Shown here in pieces: positions 5,687 through 49,183 of a DNA stretch of 64,000 nucleotides. Both the position numbers and the translations under genes were made by a program. Position 1 is the stretch's first letter; each line of letters begins with the position of its first letter. The stretch is from Glutamicibacter uratoxydans (lineage in GTDB: Bacteria > Actinomycetota > Actinomycetes > Actinomycetales > Micrococcaceae): NCBI RefSeq assembly GCF_006539925.1, contig NZ_BJNY01000015.1:34376-98375 (forward strand), given 5' to 3'. Under the pieces are notes generated by a model. It made no database searches. It was not told where the DNA came from and was given only the letters and a program-made list of their open reading frames with translations.

Positions 5687-7497
5687 GGTTTCTTCTGTTC
5701 CTTACCTATAAAGGCGTCGTACGCCTCAGATTCGGTCGTGCTCGGTGGCACATTGTATGTATGCAGGGTGTGGCTCATGACCTCGGTGAAGGTGTCGGCC
5801 ACCGAGAACTGCTTCCAGTCGCCCTTCGGGCGGTACATCGTGGCGACCACTACGTACTGTGGATCATCCAGCGGTGCGACGCCGGCGAAGGAATAGGTGT
5901 AGCCGTCGTAGCCGCCGTTGGGTCCAGCCGCCTGGCCGGTACCGGTCTTACCGCCGACGCGGTAGCCCGGTATCTTCATTTTAGTACCGGTGCCGTGTTC
6001 GACGACGCCCTCCATGAGCTTGAGCATCTCGGCGGCGGTGGATTCCTTCACCACGCGCTCCTCTTTGGGATTCGCCGGGTCGGAAATCGAGCCGTCCTCA
6101 TTCTTGTACCCCGAGATGAGGCTTGGCTGGATGCGCACGCCGCCATTGGCCAGGGTCTGGAAGATCGCCGCGGTATGCAGCGCCGACTGCGAATAGCCCT
6201 GTCCGAACTGGGTGGTGTACTGCTGGCGGCGGTCCCAGTTCTCCGGCGAGGCCAGCTGGCCGGCGGTGGCGCCGTTCAGGCCCACATCGATGGGCGAGCC
6301 CAGGCCGAAGGCGCGCATGTAGTCATAGCGGGTCTTGCTGCTGATCTTGTTGCCCACCATCACGGTGCCGGTGTTGTAGGAGCGGGCGAAGATGCCGGCG
6401 GCGGTCATGTCATAGGTGGCGTGTTCCAAGGAGTCGTGAATAGTTTCCTTGGTGAAGGTCTTGGCGTTGGGCACGGTGAACGCATCGGTGGGCTTGACCG
6501 CCCCGGCGTCGATGGCCGCCGCAAAAGTCGCGGCCTTGCCTGTGGAACCAGGCTCGAAAGCGCGGGTTACGGACACCGAACGGCGGAATTCAGGATCGGT
6601 GGCGCCGGGATTGTTCGGATCCAGCTCTGCGGAGTCGCCGATGGCCAGCAGCTTGCCGGTCTTGACCTCTTCCACAATGACGGTGACCCAGTCGGCGTTG
6701 AACTGCTTGCGCTTGGCTTCCGCGGCGCGCTGCGCCTCGTACTGGATGTCCGAGTCGAGGGTCAGCATGATGTCCTGCCCGTTCACAGCTGGAGTTTCAT
6801 CCAGGTCGGTGGTCGGGATGCGCACGCCGTCGGCGCTGACTTCGTAGCTTCGCTTGCCCGGGGTGCCGGCCAGGTGCTTTTCCTGGCTCAGTTCCAGGCC
6901 TTCGGCGCCGACGACGCCGGTCTGATCTTCGGAGTTTCGGACGAAGCCCAGCAGCGGGCCTGCAATGACGCCCTGCGGGTACTGGCGCTCGCTGCGCAGC
7001 TGGGAGGACAGGCGCGGGATGCCGATTTCCATGGCCTCGTTGCGCACCTCGGGGGTGACGCTCTTGGCGATGACAACATAGCCCTTTGGCTTGGCGCCGT
7101 TCTGCGGGCGGATGGCTTTGGTCAGCTCATCGACGTCCTGGTCCAGCACCTCGGACAGTTCCTTGATCGCCTGTTCCCAGGAAATCTGTTCGCGCACATT
7201 GGAGCCGTCGCGCTTCTTGCGGCGGATCTGCTCCGTCTGCTTGCGCTGGTCCAAAACCAGGTCGTAACGGTCCACCGAAACCGCCAGCGTGGTCCCGTTC
7301 TTGTCGAGGATCGAGCCGCGGTTCGGCTGAATGACTTCGGTTCGGCTGCGGTTCTGCTGCGCGGTGTCGGCAACTGCGCTCATGTTAATCCCCTGCACCC
7401 AGAACAGGCGCAGAGCAATCACCACCAGCAGCGTGAGCGACAACAGCAGGACGAAGCGCATGCGCTTCTTCGCGGTATTGATAATCGACGAACTCAC
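5680..7497 (-). CDS. ftsI: FtsI/PbpB, septal class B penicillin-binding protein
   Basis: Division-specific transpeptidase that cross-links septal peptidoglycan together with FtsW. The 605 residues begin with a short cytoplasmic segment and one membrane helix (about 12-34), then a PBP dimerisation domain, then the transpeptidase domain. The active-site motifs are all present: STGK (S318-K321), SYN (373-375) and KTGT (517-520). There is no PASTA domain at the C-terminus, which is normal for this class. It is followed by murE with a 7-bp overlap and preceded by ftsL (75-bp gap), the standard actinobacterial dcw order. Confidence 0.95.
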   Translation of the reverse strand: MSSSIINTAKKRMRFVLLLSLTLLVVIALRLFWVQGINMSAVADTAQQNRSRTEVIQPNRGSILDKNGTTLAVSVDRYDLVLDQRKQTEQIRRKKRDGSNVREQISWEQAIKELSEVLDQDVDELTKAIRPQNGAKPKGYVVIAKSVTPEVRNEAMEIGIPRLSSQLRSERQYPQGVIAGPLLGFVRNSEDQTGVVGAEGLELSQEKHLAGTPGKRSYEVSADGVRIPTTDLDETPAVNGQDIMLTLDSDIQYEAQRAAEAKRKQFNADWVTVIVEEVKTGKLLAIGDSAELDPNNPGATDPEFRRSVSVTRAFEPGSTGKAATFAAAIDAGAVKPTDAFTVPNAKTFTKETIHDSLEHATYDMTAAGIFARSYNTGTVMVGNKISSKTRYDYMRAFGLGSPIDVGLNGATAGQLASPENWDRRQQYTTQFGQGYSQSALHTAAIFQTLANGGVRIQPSLISGYKNEDGSISDPANPKEERVVKESTAAEMLKLMEGVVEHGTGTKMKIPGYRVGGKTGTGQAAGPNGGYDGYTYSFAGVAPLDDPQYVVVATMYRPKGDWKQFSVADTFTEVMSHTLHTYNVPPSTTESEAYDAFIGKEQKKPW

Positions 7498-41819: not shown

Positions 41820-43454
41820 CTACTTGCTCAGTACGCCCAAGCGGAACTTGAACGATGCGTCCAAGGTCTTGTCGACGTCCTTGACGTCCTTGCCCGCAAC
41901 AGCAACCTGGGCTCCCTGCAGCAGCGGGAGGGTGGACAGGTCCTTGGCGACCATGGTCTGCAGCTCTTCGATGGCCTTGGTGCGCTGTGCAGTGTCGGTC
42001 ATGCCGCGCTGCTCTGCGATCAGCTTGTCAACGTCCTTGTTGTCGTAGTTGTTCGACAGGAAGTTGTCCTTGGCGAAGAACGGCGACAGGTAGTTGTCTG
42101 CATCCGAGTAGTCGGGGAACCAGCCCAGCTGGTAGGCCGGGTAGTCGGTGACGCGCTGCTTCTGGTAGGTGACCCACTCGGTGGACTTCAAGTCCACCTT
42201 GAACAGGCCGTCGGCTTCCAGCTGCTTCTGGATCATGGCGTACTCGTCGCCTGAGCTTGGACCGTAGTGGTCTGGGTTGTACTGCAGAGCGAGCTTGACC
42301 GGGGTCTGCACGCCTGCGTCTTCCAGAACCTTCTTGGCCTTGGCGGCATCCGGCTTGCCGTCGGTGCCGTACAGATCCTTCAGCGGCTCGATGGCGCCGG
42401 TGAAGCCCTGCGGCACGTAGGAGTAGGCAGGGGTGTAGGTGTCCTTGTAGACCTCGGTGGCAATGGCCTGACGGTCGACCAGGTTGGCGGCCGCCTGGCG
42501 TACCGCCAGGGCCTTGGCGGCATCGGCGTCAGCGGTCTTGGCACCATATGGCATGGTGTCGAAGTTGAAGACGATGTAGCGCAGCTCGCCGCCCGGGCCC
42601 TTGTGGACTGTCAGGTTGTCCTGCTTTTCCAGGTCCTGGATGTCGGTCGGGGTCAGCGAACGCCATGCCACGTCGATGTTGCCCTGCTGGATGTCCAGCT
42701 TCATGTTGTTGGCATCAGCGTAGTACTTGATGGCGGCGGACTTGTTCGCGGCCGCGCCGAGCACGCCGGCGTAGGAGTCATTGGCCGAGAAAGAGATCAG
42801 GCTGTTCTTGTTGTACGAGTCGATCACGTACTGGCCGCCGAAGGCCTTGGCCGAAACGATCTCGGTGTCGTCCAGCACCTTGTCTGCCGGGAAGACTTCG
42901 TCGTCCACGATCGGGCCGACAGGCGAGGTGAGCACCTGCGGGAAGGTCTGGTCGTTGGCTACCTTGAGCTTGAAGACCACGGTGTTGGCATCGGGTGCGG
43001 TGATGGACTCGACGTTGCCCAGCAGCGAAGACGGACCGTTTGGATCGGCGATCTTCAGCTGGCGGTCGAAGGAGAACTTCACGTCCTTGGAGTCCAGGTC
43101 GTGGCCGTTGGCCCACTTCAGACCCGACTTGAGCTTGACGGTGTACTCGTTGGGCGAAGTGAACTCGGCGGATTCAGCAAGATCGTTGGACGGATCCGGG
43201 CTACCCGGCTTCGAGTTCAGCAGGAATGGGAAGATCTGGTTCATGACCATGAATGAGCCGTTGTCATAGGAGCCGGCCGGGTCGAGGGAAGTGACCTTGT
43301 CGGTGGTGCCCAAGGTGATCGGCGAGCTGGCGGCGTCGCCGCCGCCGCTGCCTTCATTGCCGCTTGGAGCAGCTGAGGTGCAGCCGGTGAGTGCGAGAGC
43401 GGAAATACCCAAAACGGCTGCGGCGAGACGCAGCCCGTTCTTTTTGCGAGTCAT
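41820..43454 (-). CDS. Peptide-type substrate-binding lipoprotein (SBP family 5)
   Basis: Extracytoplasmic binding protein of the adjacent ABC importer. The start chosen is the ATG at 43454 (MTRKKNGLRLAAAVLGISALALTGC). It gives a clean lipoprotein signal with lipobox LTGC (Cys25), preceded by GGAT. The 544 residues contain the family 5 signature region around LAESAEFTSPNEYTVKLKSGLKWANGHDLDSKDVKFSFDR (about 90-130) and the C-terminal lobe ending LGVLSK. A Ser/Gly-rich linker follows the lipid-modified cysteine. Peptides are the commonest family 5 ligands, but other ligands are known. Confidence 0.92.
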   Translation of the reverse strand: MTRKKNGLRLAAAVLGISALALTGCTSAAPSGNEGSGGGDAASSPITLGTTDKVTSLDPAGSYDNGSFMVMNQIFPFLLNSKPGSPDPSNDLAESAEFTSPNEYTVKLKSGLKWANGHDLDSKDVKFSFDRQLKIADPNGPSSLLGNVESITAPDANTVVFKLKVANDQTFPQVLTSPVGPIVDDEVFPADKVLDDTEIVSAKAFGGQYVIDSYNKNSLISFSANDSYAGVLGAAANKSAAIKYYADANNMKLDIQQGNIDVAWRSLTPTDIQDLEKQDNLTVHKGPGGELRYIVFNFDTMPYGAKTADADAAKALAVRQAAANLVDRQAIATEVYKDTYTPAYSYVPQGFTGAIEPLKDLYGTDGKPDAAKAKKVLEDAGVQTPVKLALQYNPDHYGPSSGDEYAMIQKQLEADGLFKVDLKSTEWVTYQKQRVTDYPAYQLGWFPDYSDADNYLSPFFAKDNFLSNNYDNKDVDKLIAEQRGMTDTAQRTKAIEELQTMVAKDLSTLPLLQGAQVAVAGKDVKDVDKTLDASFKFRLGVLSK

Positions 43455-43511
43455 TGAGTGATCCTTAATAATCCGTGAGCATGTTTCTGGTGGTGATGAA
43501 TAACACATGCT

Positions 43512-43529
43512 TCACATAAGACTATGTGA
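43512..43529. promoter_or_regulatory. Inverted repeat upstream of the transporter operon
   Basis: TCACATA-agac-TATGTGA has perfect 7-bp arms and lies about 58 bp before the binding-protein ATG. It is a possible operator. It is not a CRP/GlxR site, because those are TGTGA-N6-TCACA and this is the reverse arrangement. Confidence 0.45.
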
Positions 43530-43590
43530 TGAAAGCCACCTATGACTAATGCATTGGCTGCTTGGATCGTTTTTCTTGGGCCTCGGGCGG

Positions 43591-43608
43591 GCAGAACCGG
43601 TGTTCTGC
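43591..43608. promoter_or_regulatory. Inverted repeat in the divergent intergenic region
   Basis: GCAGAAC-cggt-GTTCTGC has perfect 7-bp arms in the 234-bp gap between the divergent binding-protein gene (minus) and the small gene at 43689 (plus). It could be an operator for either. No T-run is present. Confidence 0.4.
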
Positions 43609-43688
43609 ATCACGAGTTCACCTTCTCAACGTGATGTGCGACGGCCGTGCTGGTGGTTCATTCTGGGCGTGAACTACGCTGGTAGGTA

Positions 43689-44048
43689 ATGATGACACGA
43701 AGAGACGCGGCCATTGCGTTGGATATTCCCCTAGAAATGGCCAAGAAGCACGGCATTCCCGGCAAGATCAGCGAGGCTGATTTCCGTGAGCTGAACACCA
43801 ATCCCCCTGCGTGGTTGGCGCAGTCGCGCTCCAACCGCACCGGCAAGCGCCCGGTGTGGATTCATTTGGTCTGCGAAGTCTGCGGAGCCGAAGACTATGA
43901 GCGGCCGAAGAAGTGGTGGCCGTCCTTCGACTTTGTCCACTGCAATACCCACTCCCCGGCCCAGCTGCCCAAGCTGGAGGCTGGAAAGACCCGGGTGGAG
44001 TACCAAGATATTTCTGCGCGCATGTTCGGCATCGTCGACGAAGCCTAA
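43689..44048 (+). CDS. Small hypothetical protein with Cys/His cluster
   Basis: 119 residues, not recognised. The N-terminus (RRDAAIALDIPLEMAKKHGIPGKISEADFRELNTNPPAWLAQSR) resembles a small helical, possibly HTH-like, segment. The second half has a tryptophan-rich patch with a possible metal site C72-E-V-C75 and, about 20 residues on, H-C-N-T-H (WIHLVCEVCGAEDYERPKKWWPSFDFVHCNTHS). GGTAGG precedes two adjacent ATGs (43689 and 43692), so the start may be one codon later. It stands alone between a divergent transporter and a convergent nitrite reductase. Composition matches its neighbours. Function unknown. Confidence 0.72.
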   Translation: MMTRRDAAIALDIPLEMAKKHGIPGKISEADFRELNTNPPAWLAQSRSNRTGKRPVWIHLVCEVCGAEDYERPKKWWPSFDFVHCNTHSPAQLPKLEAGKTRVEYQDISARMFGIVDEA

Positions 44049-44061
44049 AAACTGCGCACAA

Positions 44062-44104
44062 AAGCCACGGCAGCGAACACACATGGTGTGCGCTGCCGTG
44101 GCTT
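44062..44104. terminator. Bidirectional terminator between convergent genes
   Basis: The stem GCCACGGCAGCG / CGCTGCCGTGGC with an inner ACAC/GTGT extension spans 44062-44104. It is flanked by A (left) and T (right) residues. It lies between the small gene ending at 44048 and the nitrite reductase stop at 44115. Confidence 0.85.
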
Positions 44105-44114
44105 CTTCACGTCC

Positions 44115-46862
44115 CTAGTCGCTCACGTGGATCATGCCGTGGGCGCCCTTTTCGGCATCCGACATGTAGTGCGTGACGAAGGGATAGTTTCCGGCTTCGG
44201 GAAGGCTCAGTTCAACGAATCCGCCCTGTGCCGGCGCAAGGGCCAGGGTTTGGGAGCCCCCGCTGGTTTTGTCCCTGGCATCGAGCAGATAGCTTCCTTC
44301 GAAGAACACCGAATCGAACTGCCCGCCGATGACGTGGAAGGAGCTGGGACGGTTGGGGCCTGCGTCCAACACCCAGATGCGGATCTTCTCATTGGCCTTG
44401 ACCTGCAGCTGATCGAAGCCGTACTGGTTGGCATAGCCGTTGAATACCACCAGGTCCGGATTCTGGGTTGCCACCTTCTCAACGTCCACCGGTTCGCCCT
44501 GCGCGCCGAGGTAGTACTCGGACTGGACCATCAAGAACGAAGCGTCCACTTCCGGCAGGTCCTCGGGCTCGATCACCACGGCTCCGAACATGCCGTTGGC
44601 TATATGCGCGCTCATTGGCTGGGTCGAGCAGTGGTACATCCAGATGCCGGACTTTGTGGCGGTGAAGGTGTAGGTCAGCTCCTCGCCAGGTGCGATGGTC
44701 CGCATCGGCTTGTCGGGGGCCAGGGATCCTGCGTGGAAATCGATTGAATGGCCCAGTGTGCCGTCGTTGTACAGCGTGATTTCAAACTTGTCGCCGACCC
44801 GCCCGTGAAGGGTCGGGCCGGGCGCTGTGCCGTTGAAGGTCCACAGTTTCTGGGTGAACCCCGCGGCGACCTCAGCTTCCAGCTCGCTGACGGTGAATTT
44901 CTGCTTGTGCACCATTGGCTTGCCGTTGTTCTTGGGCAGCTTATCCAGCACCGGATTGTGTGCCTTGAAGTTTTCTCCCGGCGTGGCCATCAGGTCTGGT
45001 TTTCCGTCCTGGGGCGTGGCATTCCCCGAATGATCCATCCCCGGCATGCTGCCGTGGGCTTGGGCATCAGGCTGCTGCGTCGGAGCGGGGCTGTCCTGTC
45101 CGGAGCCTGCACTGCCGTCGGCGGCGCCGGTGACCGCGATGTGCATGACCATGCCCATTTGGCGGTGCCCGACGATGGAGCACCAGCCATCCAGATCCGC
45201 GGTGATGATTCCCGCGTCGACCTCTGCGCTCTGCCCCGGGGCAAGCCGTCCTGACTCGGCGCCGTTGGCCAGCACCAGGTCGTGGACCTGGGAGGCGTCG
45301 GTGTTGGTGAGCTTGATGACCAGCCTGGTGCCGGCTTCAACTTCAATACGCGACGGGGTGAAGCGCATGTTCTGGGCGGTCATTTCCACGGTCTTCACCG
45401 GCGCAGTGTCTCCACCTGCTGCGGAACTCTGGTTCTGAGTTGCCGCTGCCGGCTCGCGCATGCCGGCGGCAGCTGGATCAAGGGCGACGCCAAGCGCCAC
45501 GGCCAGGACCACTGCCATGAATCCTGCGGCGGCCTGTCCCAGGCGCTGTCCCCTGGGCCGCGCACCTTCAGGCTCCACCGGAGTGCGGTCCTTGGCTGGA
45601 AGCCCGGCCGGCACGGCCCCTGCCTGCTTCTTTGCAGTCCGGTGCGCTTTCAAGGCGCCGAAGAGCACCGGAATGAAAGCTGCCATGGCCACGAGGTACA
45701 GCACCGAGGCAAGGACCCTGACCAGGGAGGACACCGGCAGGGCGCAGACCAGCAGGGCCGTGTTCGCCATGCTCACGCGCCAAGAGGCGCCGCGGTCAAA
45801 ATAGGTGGCCGCCGCGCGCACCGGCCGAGGTCCCCCGCCCAATGCCACCGGAATCAGGTAGGACAGCGCACCAAGCAGGATCTGCGCTCCGAAGCCTGCC
45901 ACGAGGTACGGGGCGACCGTGTCGAAGATGCTTCCCATGGCCACCCAGTCGCTGCTGGCGGCCATCCCGTAGAGCGTCCACACCAGGGTTCCGATCCACC
46001 AGCTCACGGCGCCGAGCACCGACAGGGTGGCGAAGCTGCGCGGAGGCTTGGCCTTGGCGGCGTAGATGAATGGTGCGGCCATGAAACCGAGCCCTGTCAA
46101 ATAGACCAGCACGCCTGCAGCCGCGGCAGGCAGCAGCCCTGCCGCGGCGCCCGAGGCTGAGACCAGCACGCCGGCAATGAGCATTGGAAGGGCGCGGCGC
46201 AGGCGCAGTGCCGCATTCGGCGCGATCTTGGTGCGCAGCATCGTTGGCCACAGCGTGATCAGGGTGCCGGCCACGGTGAGCCCCACCCAGCCGAGCAGGT
46301 TGACCAGTGCATGGGCGAGCATGATGCGCTCATGCAGCGGGGATGCCAGCGAGGTGGATAGCCAGGTGCCTAGCCCTGCTCCGACGGGCAGGAAGCAGGC
46401 GGCGGCGATGTAGTAGCGCACGCTGGGGCTGTAAGGAGAAGGCAGTGCGCCCTTCATCCGGCGATAGAGCCATATCCCGTGCCACAGGGCGGCGGCGGCA
46501 ATGCTCGTTGCGCCAAGCAACGTGATGGGCCATAGGGTGCCCAGCACCCCGATGACCACCACGACGGCGCCACCGTTCATCATCCCAAGGCGGATTGACT
46601 GTTCCCGGCGCGACTTTTCGGTCACCACGAGCTTGAGCAGCGCGGTGGCGAAGTACTGCGACCAGACCAGGATGGCGTGGGAGAGCGCGCCGAGCATCAG
46701 CAGGTGGATGAGCAGCCAGCGCGGCGCCGGCAGCTGGCGGTGGATCAGCGCCACCGCCACTACCAGGATCAGCCAGATCGCCGTGGGCAGATCCCGCAGC
46801 GGCCAGAAGCCGCGGTTGGAAACCTTGTTCGGCACCGGAGAGGAACCGAGCTGGATGTTCAT
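44115..46862 (-). CDS. Membrane domain-cupredoxin-copper nitrite reductase (NirK) fusion
   Basis: A 915-residue protein with three parts. Residues about 25-405 form a polytopic membrane domain of 10-12 helices, with another helix near 443-463. Residues about 489-578 are a cupredoxin with type 1 copper ligands H527, C561, H566 and M569 or M571. A His/Met-rich linker (about 602-612, HGSMPGMDH) leads to a two-cupredoxin NirK part (about 640-915). The NirK copper ligands are in place: H705, H744-C745, H753, M758 for type 1 and H710, H744 (by family pattern) plus H898 for type 2. Catalytic D708 and H843 are also present. It should reduce nitrite to NO, fed by its own electron-carrying cupredoxin. 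Its ATG overlaps the upstream NnrS-like gene. Which side of the membrane it faces is inferred as extracellular. Confidence 0.85.
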   Translation of the reverse strand: MNIQLGSSPVPNKVSNRGFWPLRDLPTAIWLILVVAVALIHRQLPAPRWLLIHLLMLGALSHAILVWSQYFATALLKLVVTEKSRREQSIRLGMMNGGAVVVVIGVLGTLWPITLLGATSIAAAALWHGIWLYRRMKGALPSPYSPSVRYYIAAACFLPVGAGLGTWLSTSLASPLHERIMLAHALVNLLGWVGLTVAGTLITLWPTMLRTKIAPNAALRLRRALPMLIAGVLVSASGAAAGLLPAAAAGVLVYLTGLGFMAAPFIYAAKAKPPRSFATLSVLGAVSWWIGTLVWTLYGMAASSDWVAMGSIFDTVAPYLVAGFGAQILLGALSYLIPVALGGGPRPVRAAATYFDRGASWRVSMANTALLVCALPVSSLVRVLASVLYLVAMAAFIPVLFGALKAHRTAKKQAGAVPAGLPAKDRTPVEPEGARPRGQRLGQAAAGFMAVVLAVALGVALDPAAAGMREPAAATQNQSSAAGGDTAPVKTVEMTAQNMRFTPSRIEVEAGTRLVIKLTNTDASQVHDLVLANGAESGRLAPGQSAEVDAGIITADLDGWCSIVGHRQMGMVMHIAVTGAADGSAGSGQDSPAPTQQPDAQAHGSMPGMDHSGNATPQDGKPDLMATPGENFKAHNPVLDKLPKNNGKPMVHKQKFTVSELEAEVAAGFTQKLWTFNGTAPGPTLHGRVGDKFEITLYNDGTLGHSIDFHAGSLAPDKPMRTIAPGEELTYTFTATKSGIWMYHCSTQPMSAHIANGMFGAVVIEPEDLPEVDASFLMVQSEYYLGAQGEPVDVEKVATQNPDLVVFNGYANQYGFDQLQVKANEKIRIWVLDAGPNRPSSFHVIGGQFDSVFFEGSYLLDARDKTSGGSQTLALAPAQGGFVELSLPEAGNYPFVTHYMSDAEKGAHGMIHVSD

Positions 46863-47986
46863 GAGGAATGAACCTTCTTCCCATTGTCAATGGAGGCGTA
46901 GACTGCGGACCCCGCCGCAACGAGCACAAAGAGCAGCAAAGCGAGCACATTGAGCACCCCGCCGATCTGCCAAGCCAGATGCAGGCCCAGTCCGTCGCCG
47001 AGCCAGATCCTGATGACCAGTCCAAGGTGCATCAGCAGCGCCGGGATCCACATGGCTTTGCGGTAGGGCAGGTCCACTGCCAGCACCGCCGGCAGGATGG
47101 TGGAGGCATGGGCCATGATCATCGACATCACAAACCCGAGGAAGACCGCATGGATGACGGTGTCGTATCTGGCGGTGGTGTTCGGGTAGCCGAGCATCCA
47201 AGCTGCCGCCGCGATGAACAGCCAAAAGTATCCCGTCAGCAGGCAGGCGGCCATATAGCGCGGGGCGCCGGTGGATTTGATGGTCCTGCGTGCCACGTCG
47301 TTGGCCGCCAGCCAGATAACCTGCGCTGCCAGCGCCAGGCCGAACAGAACCGTGCCGACGTCGATGAAAAGCGTGGCTGCCAAGGCACCGAGCATCAGCG
47401 CAAAGGCCAGGACCGGCGCGAGGGCTTCTGCCCGAGCGCTCAGCTGCACCCGGGCCAGCTCTACGCGCTCTCCGGCGATGGTTGCGACCATGAACGTCGC
47501 CAGCCACGGAAGCAGCAGCGGGATCTGCACTCCCCCGGTCCACAGCACCACCGCGGCCAGGCCTGCGCAGGCGCCGAGCATCTGGATCAGCACCGCGTCG
47601 GCGCGCTGGCGCTTCCACAGCGGAACATAGATCGCGAGCACGCCTGCCATGCCTGCGATCAGCAGCGCCCCGGTGGCCCACTGAGGGATGGCAATCAGCT
47701 GGCTCGCGCCGCCGGAGACCAGCAGGATTGGGGCAAGATAGCCCAGCGGCTTGCCCAGCGCCGCCGCGCGCTCCAGGCAGATCAGCGCGCCCACAAATCC
47801 ATAGACCATGATCAGCCCGTGGGCCGGGGCCCAGTAGGCCGCGGGCACGGGAGCCGGCACGTCAAGCAGCAGCAGCGCGGCGTCAAGCCCGATCAAAAGG
47901 CACAGTCCTGCAGGGAGCATCAGCGACAAGCGCCAGCGCCCGCCCCGTTTGCGGCGCTTGGGCTTGGCTGCGACAGGGGTGTTCAT
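46859..47986 (-). CDS. NnrS-like polytopic membrane protein
   Basis: 375 residues with about 10-12 membrane helices and a basic N-terminus. The stretches PAPVPAAYWAPAHGLIMVYGFVGALICLERAAALG and TTARYDTVIHAVFLGFVMSMIMAHASTILPAVL resemble NnrS-family haem/copper membrane proteins associated with NO stress and denitrification. Conserved histidines occur in both. Homology is judged by eye, so a more distant membrane family is possible. It is coupled by ATGA overlaps to the regulator upstream and the nitrite reductase fusion downstream, which strongly ties it to nitrite/NO metabolism. Confidence 0.72.
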   Translation of the reverse strand: MNTPVAAKPKRRKRGGRWRLSLMLPAGLCLLIGLDAALLLLDVPAPVPAAYWAPAHGLIMVYGFVGALICLERAAALGKPLGYLAPILLVSGGASQLIAIPQWATGALLIAGMAGVLAIYVPLWKRQRADAVLIQMLGACAGLAAVVLWTGGVQIPLLLPWLATFMVATIAGERVELARVQLSARAEALAPVLAFALMLGALAATLFIDVGTVLFGLALAAQVIWLAANDVARRTIKSTGAPRYMAACLLTGYFWLFIAAAAWMLGYPNTTARYDTVIHAVFLGFVMSMIMAHASTILPAVLAVDLPYRKAMWIPALLMHLGLVIRIWLGDGLGLHLAWQIGGVLNVLALLLFVLVAAGSAVYASIDNGKKVHSS

Positions 47987-48651
47987 CGGGTCTTTCCGGC
48001 AGGTTCGTTCATGTTGAGGATGCAGCCGCGGTTTTCGCCGGCAAAGGGGTGCAGCTGGATGCCGCCGGCATCAGCTCCCTGGGCTTCGGCCAGCCCGCGC
48101 ACCATGCCCAGATGCACATTGCAGACAATCTGCTGGTGGTCGGCCACTGCGCTGAGCAGCGGGCAGCTGCGAAGGGTCAGGCTGCCGCCGGCATTGGCTT
48201 CCGGCGAGAACCCCAGTTCTTCAAGGGAGCGCAGCACCGGGTCGGTCGACTGGGACAGGTCATTGGCTCCGGCAAGTGATGATGCCCAGCGCCTGCCCGC
48301 CGCGATGGCCTCGGCGGCAGGGTCCGCGCTGGCGGCGGCGATCTGTCCGGCGAGCGCCGAGGCGAGCTGGGCGAAGGGGCTCGGCCCGCTCTGGGCCGGC
48401 GTCCAGATCCAGGCCGGTCTGCCCCGGCCGCTGGCGGCCGCTAGGCTGCGGCTGAGGTAGCCGTCGGCGTGCAGGGCTTCGAGGTGGGCCCTGACCGTGT
48501 TTTCGTGGAGGCCCAGATGCTGGGCCACCCAGTTCAGGCTGACCCCATCGGTGTGCGTTTCGATCAGGGTGAGGATTTTCTCCCGGGTCGGGGAATGTAC
48601 GCGCCCGGCGCCGCTGCGCCGTGGTTGGCGCCTAGGTTCCTTGGAACTCAT
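47983..48651 (-). CDS. HTH regulator with C-terminal cysteine cluster
   Basis: 222 residues. The N-terminal ArsR/DeoR-like winged helix reads REKILTLIETHTDGVSLNWVAQHLGLHENTVRAHLEALHADGYL (about 23-66). The C-terminal effector domain carries C163 (RSCPLLS), C177 (IVCNVHLGMVRG), C210 (RGCIL) and nearby H180 and H201. This spacing recalls the SufR-like group of regulators that bind an iron-sulphur cluster, so sensing of NO, oxygen or metal is plausible. It is the first gene of the three-gene nitrite reductase operon and is divergent from the DUF2249 gene, so it probably controls both directions. The cluster is inferred from cysteines only. Confidence 0.75.
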   Translation of the reverse strand: MSSKEPRRQPRRSGAGRVHSPTREKILTLIETHTDGVSLNWVAQHLGLHENTVRAHLEALHADGYLSRSLAAASGRGRPAWIWTPAQSGPSPFAQLASALAGQIAAASADPAAEAIAAGRRWASSLAGANDLSQSTDPVLRSLEELGFSPEANAGGSLTLRSCPLLSAVADHQQIVCNVHLGMVRGLAEAQGADAGGIQLHPFAGENRGCILNMNEPAGKTR

Positions 48652-48792: not shown

Positions 48793-49107
48793 ATGGCTGA
48801 GTTCATTGAGATTTCGTCGAGCAAGGAAGAAGCTTCCAAGGTTCAGCCCGGCGGCACGTGCGCCTGCGGCGGCCACGACGAAGACCTGCCGCTGCTCGAT
48901 GTCCAAACCATCCCGCATGCGGTGCGTCATGCCGCGATCTTCGGTGCTCTGGATTCGATCCGCCCGGGCTCTGGGATCATCCTCTCTGCTACGCACAACC
49001 CGGTACCGCTGCTGGCCCAGCTGCAGGCGCGCAGCCCTGAAGCCTTCGAGATCAGCTACCTTGAAGAAGGCCCGGAGGTCTGGAAGATCAAGTTCGTCCG
49101 CAACTAG
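48793..49107 (+). CDS. DUF2249 domain protein
   Basis: 104 residues with a Cys-containing N-terminal extension (GGTCACGGHDEDLPLLDV). The DUF2249 fold follows: HAVRHAAIFGALDSIRPGSGIILSATHNPVPLLAQLQARSPEAFEISYLEEGPEVWKIKFVRN. The SirA-like DUF2249 proteins are small and often accompany nitrate/nitrite/NO genes and hemerythrin-type proteins. The exact activity is unknown. GGAGAAGG precedes the ATG. It is divergent from the nitrite reductase operon and probably co-regulated with it. Confidence 0.85.
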   Translation: MAEFIEISSSKEEASKVQPGGTCACGGHDEDLPLLDVQTIPHAVRHAAIFGALDSIRPGSGIILSATHNPVPLLAQLQARSPEAFEISYLEEGPEVWKIKFVRN

Positions 49108-49133: not shown

Positions 49134-49183
49134 AAACGCCATCGCCCTGGTTCAACAAGCGTTGAACCAGGGCGATGGCGTTT
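49134..49183. terminator. Long perfect hairpin between convergent genes
   Basis: A 22-bp perfect stem (49134-49155 with 49162-49183), loop CAAGCG, starts with AAA and ends with TTT. It lies between the DUF2249 stop (49107) and the mnmA stop (49196) and can terminate both. Confidence 0.9.

Follow-up and report, generated by a model that had tools for sequence, protein, structure and literature searches.

The locus described here raises the question of where NirK, the copper nitrite reductase, obtains its electrons in Gram-positive soil and skin bacteria. On the minus strand of the window (the whole stretch of 64,000 nucleotides that was analysed), an open frame of 915 unbroken codons (44115-46862) encodes a membrane domain, a 13th helix, a cupredoxin and a NirK, in this order, as one chain of 915 aa. 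A NirK-type reductase and a cupredoxin are thus found behind a domain with a predicted oxidase/NO reductase (NOR) fold. In our judgement, the chain has an even chance of being a membrane-bound nitrite reductase of the outer face that is fed by quinol or a cytochrome.

The division into membrane domain, cupredoxin and NirK, as proposed in the initial annotation, is borne out by Pfam, NCBIfam and AlphaFold2 models. The same annotation had called the layout uncommon, and had allowed for an assembly artefact that joins two adjacent genes. Both ideas have to be given up. The membrane domain and NirK share one frame in 41 of 149 genomes of the same family and in 8 of 396 from the phylum at large, and the layout has been in print for Propionibacterium acnes since 2016, according to the part of that report that describes the protein (PMC4770552). 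It is neither rare nor new. No point was found in favour of an artefactual fusion, the probability of which is practically nil. Membrane domain and NirK are recovered as a single match in 38 of the 149 same-family genomes, and both parts are present in one frame, matched in two pieces, in G060, G061 and G081; among the 149, G110 has the membrane part alone. The full query is matched at E <= 1e-10 by 3970 of 7995 scored candidates, many of which need not share the whole layout. Close relatives in named records come from Glutamicibacter, with 76% to G. protophormiae, which makes this genus the likely host.

The NirK part (residues 650-915 and the stop codon, 44115-44915, minus strand) is matched by Pfam multicopper oxidase domains from residue 659 onward and by TIGR02376 (copper nitrite reductase) over residues 643-913 (E 1.4e-49). 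The latter match scores 169.2 bits and does not reach the curated cut-off of 296.3. Judged from these alignments, the homology to NirK is clear, but the score does not justify the TIGR02376 equivalog label. Among solved relatives, AniA (2.1e-47) and HdNiR (1.4e-46) match best. The two-cupredoxin-domain fold of NirK, the type 1 and type 2 copper ligands and the catalytic Asp (D708) and His (H843) are all present. Enzymes of this class form trimers, with the type 2 copper lying between subunits. The residues named at the outset (H527, C561, H566, M569, M571, D708 and H843) are indeed found at these positions, and alignment to solved NirKs adds H705, H710, H744, C745, H753, M758 and H898; this assignment also draws on the AfNiR numbering. 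Conservation was counted in an alignment, A1, of the window protein with 109 of 120 and 30 of 120 proteins from two listings of relatives (140 rows), considering for each copper residue the rows with a letter at that position. H710 (114/114), C745 (117/117), H753, H843 and H898 (110/110 each) are invariant, and H705 and D708 (113/114 each) and H744 (111/112) nearly so. M758 is kept in only 69 of 110 rows, with Leu in 41.

The cupredoxin (residues 486-578, 45129-45407, minus strand) is matched by Pfam Cupredoxin_1 over residues 486-549 (E 6.4e-13), and carries the type 1 ligands H527 (124/126 in A1), C561 (124/124), H566 (124/124) and M571 (123/125). The competing M569 is kept in 111 of 125 rows, so M571 is the better fit to the published CX4HX4M motif. 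A cupredoxin with type 1 ligands ahead of a NirK core is the arrangement of HdNiR, which Foldseek also ranks first (E 1.5e-29) among the matches of the full model. With its ligands conserved, the cupredoxin is a plausible built-in electron donor, as had been suggested. The linker to NirK (residues 579-649, 44916-45128, minus strand) has low model confidence and is poorly conserved: none of its 67 columns (579-645) is invariant among 110 full-length rows. It had been described as rich in His and Met, which is true only to a modest extent, since residues 579-650 contain 3 His and 4 Met. In 2000 random pairs drawn from the 110 full-length rows, mean pairwise identity is 0.75 for NirK, 0.65 for the cupredoxin, 0.60 for the membrane domain and 0.35 for the linker.

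When the full model was the query, NirK structures crowded the structure search, which told nothing about the membrane domain (residues 1-416, 45615-46862, minus strand); this domain was therefore modelled alone. The AlphaFold2 models predict 12 membrane helices in this domain and one more (residues 437-461, 45480-45554, minus strand), which would cross to the outside ahead of the cupredoxin. The domain on its own reached a pLDDT of 93.6 and a pTM of 0.90, and all 50 structure matches listed for it (Foldseek, VIA) are subunit I of heme-copper oxidases or NO reductases. The match covers 383 residues at about 10% identity, and the predicted model has the 12 helices of that fold. An MFS-type domain, one of the options in the initial annotation, was rejected on this structure search. 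It counts against an oxidase core that no more than 2 of the 250 Foldseek matches reach E <= 0.001. Sequence comparisons do not detect the relationship directly. Residues 1-416 have no Pfam match above chance, and none of the 76 members of A3 matches COX1 (PF00115) or NnrS at E <= 10. A profile of the membrane domain compared with 31 aa3 oxidase subunit I sequences gave an hhalign probability of 0.1, and profile searches of PDB sequences with the membrane domain, and with the neighbouring protein MP375 discussed below, returned chance matches only.

The residues that the domain conserves, and those that it lacks, suggest what kind of oxidase relative it may be. H53 (helix 2, 46704-46706, minus strand), H184 (helix 6, 46311-46313, minus strand), Q327 (helix 10, 45882-45884, minus strand) and H128 are kept in all 140 A1 rows, and H62 in 136. 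A wider set of 71 sequences consists of the window protein, 45 TM parts of loci (four duplicate loci dropped) and 25 of 75 A3 proteins, and includes stand-alone relatives of the membrane domain. Here, too, H53 and H184 are kept throughout (71/71 each), as is Q327 in all 70 sequences with a letter, and H128 and H62 are found in 65 and 38. Of the 42 helix columns at >= 99% identity, 24 fall on helices 2, 6 and 10 (9, 8 and 7), which are the central helices of the oxidase fold related by pseudo-symmetry. In oxidases, helices 2 and 6 bear metal-ligand His (motifs MHG and HPE in the genome's own aa3 gene). H53 and H184 lie on these helices by number and are candidate cofactor residues, H53 alternatively a candidate for a quinol site. 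Oxidases also carry His pairs on helices 7 and 10, as seen in the motifs HH and HFH of the same aa3 gene. In the membrane domain, no column of these two helices has His in >= 20% of the 140 A1 rows, or in >= 15 of 71 sequences of the wider set. The absence of the pairs leaves no helix 10 ligand for a classical bis-His low-spin heme. Judged by eye, VAGFGAQ in helix 10 could stand in place of VAHFHYV of aa3, both His being replaced by Gly. Model and alignment together suggest that the fold was kept and the oxidase active site lost.

The side of the membrane on which the reductase lies can be predicted from the loops between the 13 model helices, which contain 24 Lys and Arg on the N-terminal side and 4 on the other. 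The N-terminal side is the richer one in 140 of 140 A1 rows. This bias, together with the predicted helices, would place the N terminus inside, and the cupredoxin and NirK outside. H53 is then 5 residues and H184 8 residues away from the outer end of its helix, which would put both on the same side of the membrane as the cupredoxin, a position read from helix ends and not from coordinates. The full-length model has a pTM of 0.67, and the relative placement of its domains is uncertain.

These features can be combined into a scheme, of which we infer every electron-transfer step. Electrons from menaquinol/quinol or from a respiratory cytochrome would enter the remnant oxidase core. The core would have lost its oxidase chemistry, and have retained, around H53 and H184, a site for a cofactor or for quinol close to the outer face. 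Close to this face, electrons would leave it for the type 1 copper of the cupredoxin, and would continue to the type 1 and then the type 2 copper of NirK, where nitrite would be reduced to NO. Helix 13 and the cupredoxin recall oxidase subunit II. They differ from it in having a site for a single copper, and probably in the direction of electron flow, which would be outward to the cupredoxin and not inward from it. The NnrS-like neighbour MP375 would aid assembly or NO tolerance.

The two halves of the chain also occur apart, which counts against this electron route. A cupredoxin-NirK is found without the membrane domain, for example in L041-L043 and L048, and stand-alone membrane proteins of the family occur in L064, L065 and L066, with no NirK match in the stretch fetched. 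The one in L066 adjoins a NarK-family transporter (TIGR00886, 1.2e-64, below cut-off). A gap of 14 bases separates the cupredoxin-NirK gene of L063 from a same-strand neighbour that encodes a stand-alone member of the membrane family, and L049 has a cut membrane frame near a NirK on the opposite strand. The many relatives in which NirK does without a membrane domain would fit the view that the domain is a mere anchor or assembly scaffold left from an oxidase-like ancestor, with a membrane-bound cytochrome c or the bcc-aa3 supercomplex passing electrons to NirK, either straight or through the cupredoxin. The lack of conserved His in helices 7 and 10 and the presence of an aa3-type oxidase gene in the genome would agree with such a role. 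However, one helix would suffice as an anchor, whereas here the fold is retained across 383 residues and 12 helices, with 53 of 389 columns invariant in the 110 full-length rows, so that the domain is, by this measure, under constraint. Moreover, H53, H184 and Q327 are kept even in stand-alone relatives. A mere anchor is thus rather unlikely, and the electron-conducting core is preferred.

A passing remark in the initial annotation that the membrane domain might be NnrS-like has gained some support. The profile built from the 71 TM sequences hits an NnrS/COX1-type protein, L072, at a probability of 82.9 (E 9e-6), with TM residues 143-398 aligned on residues 5-263. Pfam matches of the L072 protein are NnrS (72.8 bits) and COX1 (62.3 bits). 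Its stretch HIHAHAQLFGW, matched by positions 343-396 of the CcoN model, lies opposite H184, which is aligned with a His. A control set started from 98 multi-helix frames; after removal of 50 that had a blastp match to the TM domain, 48 were scored, among them 26 MP375-like and 18 unrelated frames, including the genome's own aa3 gene. The NnrS protein (entered twice) ranked first among the 48. In L058, a frame of 232 aa next to NirK reached 81.9, and the others among the best 18 rows at most 3.5. Outside the TM relatives, the MP375-like frames, NnrS and L058_82, the remaining 18 frames had probabilities of at most 1.0, and the reversed NnrS sequence 0.2. The link is limited by the single-sequence template and by an offset of four helices in the match, and the probability of 0.1 for aa3 itself counts against it. 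A sequence-level link to aa3 subunit I was rejected on that value.

NnrS functions in NO tolerance, and an NnrS-like neighbour is present as well. MP375 (46859-47986, minus strand) is a polytopic, weakly NnrS-like protein of 375 aa, the frame of which runs, with its stop codon, 4 bases into the start of the NirK gene. Its conserved residues are H56, H279, H293, E72, R73, E173, R174 and E176. NnrS is the commonest Pfam match among MP375 members (19 of 72 at E <= 10, best E 0.0026); the window's MP375 scores 5.9 bits against the PF05940 cut-off of 28, and no member is known to pass it. At E <= 0.001, 26 of 149 genomes of the same family have a relative, or 25 after dismissal of the G061 match (E 8e-5, three stops) as noise. 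In all 25, the MP375 gene is directly ahead of TM-NirK (Fisher's p 6e-18, kinship ignored), and G209, of the same order, has an identical HTH-MP375-TM-NirK arrangement.

Both membrane proteins might therefore be NnrS-like and serve in NO handling, or in copper or heme supply to NirK, instead of electron delivery. The genome has no NO reductase according to the COX1 family search, so that NO would need to be handled, in keeping with such a role. Against it, the two proteins do not match each other in profile comparisons (probabilities 7.5 and 5.9), and kinship between them was rejected on these grounds. The membrane domain's own match is to one sequence and shifted by four helices. MP375 is absent from 16 of 41 TM-NirK genomes, and of the 14 genomes across the phylum that carry a relative of MP375 (38-43% identity in the 12 concerned), 12 have no listed NirK match adjoining it, which argues against a fixed tie between MP375 and NirK. 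We consider this explanation improbable, and retain electron delivery by the oxidase-like core as the working scheme.

Beyond MP375, the cluster continues with a gene for an HTH regulator of 222 aa (47983-48651, minus strand), which overlaps the MP375 gene by 4 bases. The regulator has a weak SufR match, and its C163, C177, C210 and H180 are kept in 8 of 8 sequences. A DUF2249 gene starts at 48793 and runs in the opposite direction to this minus-strand cluster. At the other end, an inverted repeat with two perfectly complementary 14-base arms (44062-44104) separates the end of the NirK gene from that of a convergent gene (43689-44048), and is likely a two-way terminator.

The genome (G000, 99.99% complete) has a single NirK match, and scanning of genome contigs with the window protein found no relative. 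It carries narG, one COX1-family match, which bears the aa3 motifs, and a flavohemoprotein match (NF009805, 3.3e-89, below cut-off). NO reductases would also match in the COX1 family search, and none was found by it. The family search for nosZ gave no gene; its sole TIGR04246 match, of 57 residues (C1:229608-229778), is just ahead of the COX1 gene and most likely represents oxidase subunit II. With narG and NirK present, and NO reductase and nosZ not found by family search, such bacteria may release NO.

If the membrane domain is an oxidase/NOR-type core, the question of the electron source becomes testable via H53, H184 and Q327. Evolution would then have fused nitrite reduction with the oxidase/NO reductase superfamily, and a membrane family that Pfam does not match would gain a name. 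Going further, a burnt-out NO reductase or oxidase core with a subunit-II-like cupredoxin may constitute an outward quinol-to-copper module with NirK on its end, and MP375 and the split pairs may be signs of a larger family, so far unrecognised, of oxidase-fold proteins in the service of NirK. We put this forward tentatively, as a possibility that falls somewhat short of an even chance. An oxidase or NnrS identity for this membrane domain was not found in the open-access literature, subscription journals being outside the scope of the search.

Among known systems, heme-copper oxidase and NOR subunits I (CcoN, NorB, COX1) share the predicted fold at about 10% identity, but differ from the membrane domain by their His on helices 7 and 10 and by their Pfam COX1 match. 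NnrS (PF05940) is linked to the membrane domain by the profile match to one NnrS/COX1-type protein, and to MP375 by weak matches; it differs in that the membrane domain has no Pfam NnrS match and that MP375 is below the curated cut-off. In the chimeric Nir of Chloroflexi, nitrite reductase domains are fused to redox domains, some with a cupredoxin, but the fusion partner is a cytochrome c-type domain and not an oxidase-fold membrane domain, at least in the proteins covered by the relevant part of that report (PMC8756737).

The enzyme of Hyphomicrobium denitrificans (HdNiR, PDB 2dv6, 6tfd/6tfo) resembles the window protein in having an N-terminal cupredoxin and a NirK core, and the ligand motifs of the two cupredoxins align. 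In contrast to the window protein, HdNiR lacks a membrane domain and is described as a soluble hexamer (PMC7201279). Enzymes of the HdNiR type assemble as dimers of trimers. The role of its cupredoxin is disputed in the sections of the reports that deal with it. The tethered copper was judged too far from the core, at about 24 A, yet pulse radiolysis with nitrite saw this copper reduced first (PMC7201279, PMC6400189), and a mutant of the N-terminal cupredoxin copper is quoted as having higher activity (Helen et al., PMC4770552).

The closest parallel is the actinobacterial NirK of about 900 aa from P. acnes, with a TM domain of about 400 aa, a cupredoxin with a CX4HX4M motif and a NirK core (Helen et al. 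2016, PMC4770552). The domain order, compared by published description, is the same as in the window protein. The corresponding part of that report states that the TM domain is absent from some actinobacterial NirK, and calls the membrane domain one "of unknown function" (PMC4770552). To this description, the present analysis adds a predicted oxidase/NOR fold, a predicted outward topology and an NnrS-like neighbour.

The gene for the HTH regulator next to the operon genes (window 47983-48651, minus strand) encodes a protein with a weak match to SufR. C163, C177, C210 and H180 are conserved in all eight sequences compared, namely the window protein and seven relatives, and the regulator is a possible iron-sulfur NO sensor. 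Divergent from the operon lies a DUF2249 gene (window 48793-49107, plus strand), and between it and a convergent mnmA-like gene there is a stem of 20 base pairs flanked on either side by a T-rich tail (window 49137-49180), which is likely to act as a two-way terminator. Elsewhere in the genome, contig C9 carries both narG (41856-45461) and the gene for a flavohemoprotein, whose globin match is at 6585-6914; NirK lies apart from them, on contig C15. A family search of the same genome found neither an NO reductase nor nosZ.

Relatives of the NirK membrane domain (residues 1-416) also occur as stand-alone proteins, encoded at the loci L066:2378-3697, L064:883-2184 and L065:1012-2286. The first of these genes adjoins a gene for a NarK-family nitrate/nitrite transporter. 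A 505-residue protein with a DUF1858 tail (L072:1468-2985) has both NnrS and COX1 matches in Pfam and thereby links NnrS with the oxidase superfamily at the level of sequence. A 474-residue protein (L124:156-1580) matches Pfam COX1 with 128.8 bits and failed a motif filter for H.H and HH; it may be one more protein that has the oxidase fold but lacks its customary ligands.

The type 1 copper of NirK has M758 (window 44589-44591) as its axial Met ligand. In the alignment of the window protein with its relatives, this position is Leu in 41 of the 110 rows that have a letter there, for example in Mumia (P0036), Nocardioides (P0038) and Actinopolymorpha (P0097), and the remaining NirK ligands are kept in the Leu-containing sequences. 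Leu as the natural axial residue of a type 1 site would point to a raised potential of the copper. Helen et al. (PMC4770552) made this Met a requirement, and the Leu-axial sequences were therefore not part of the set described there.
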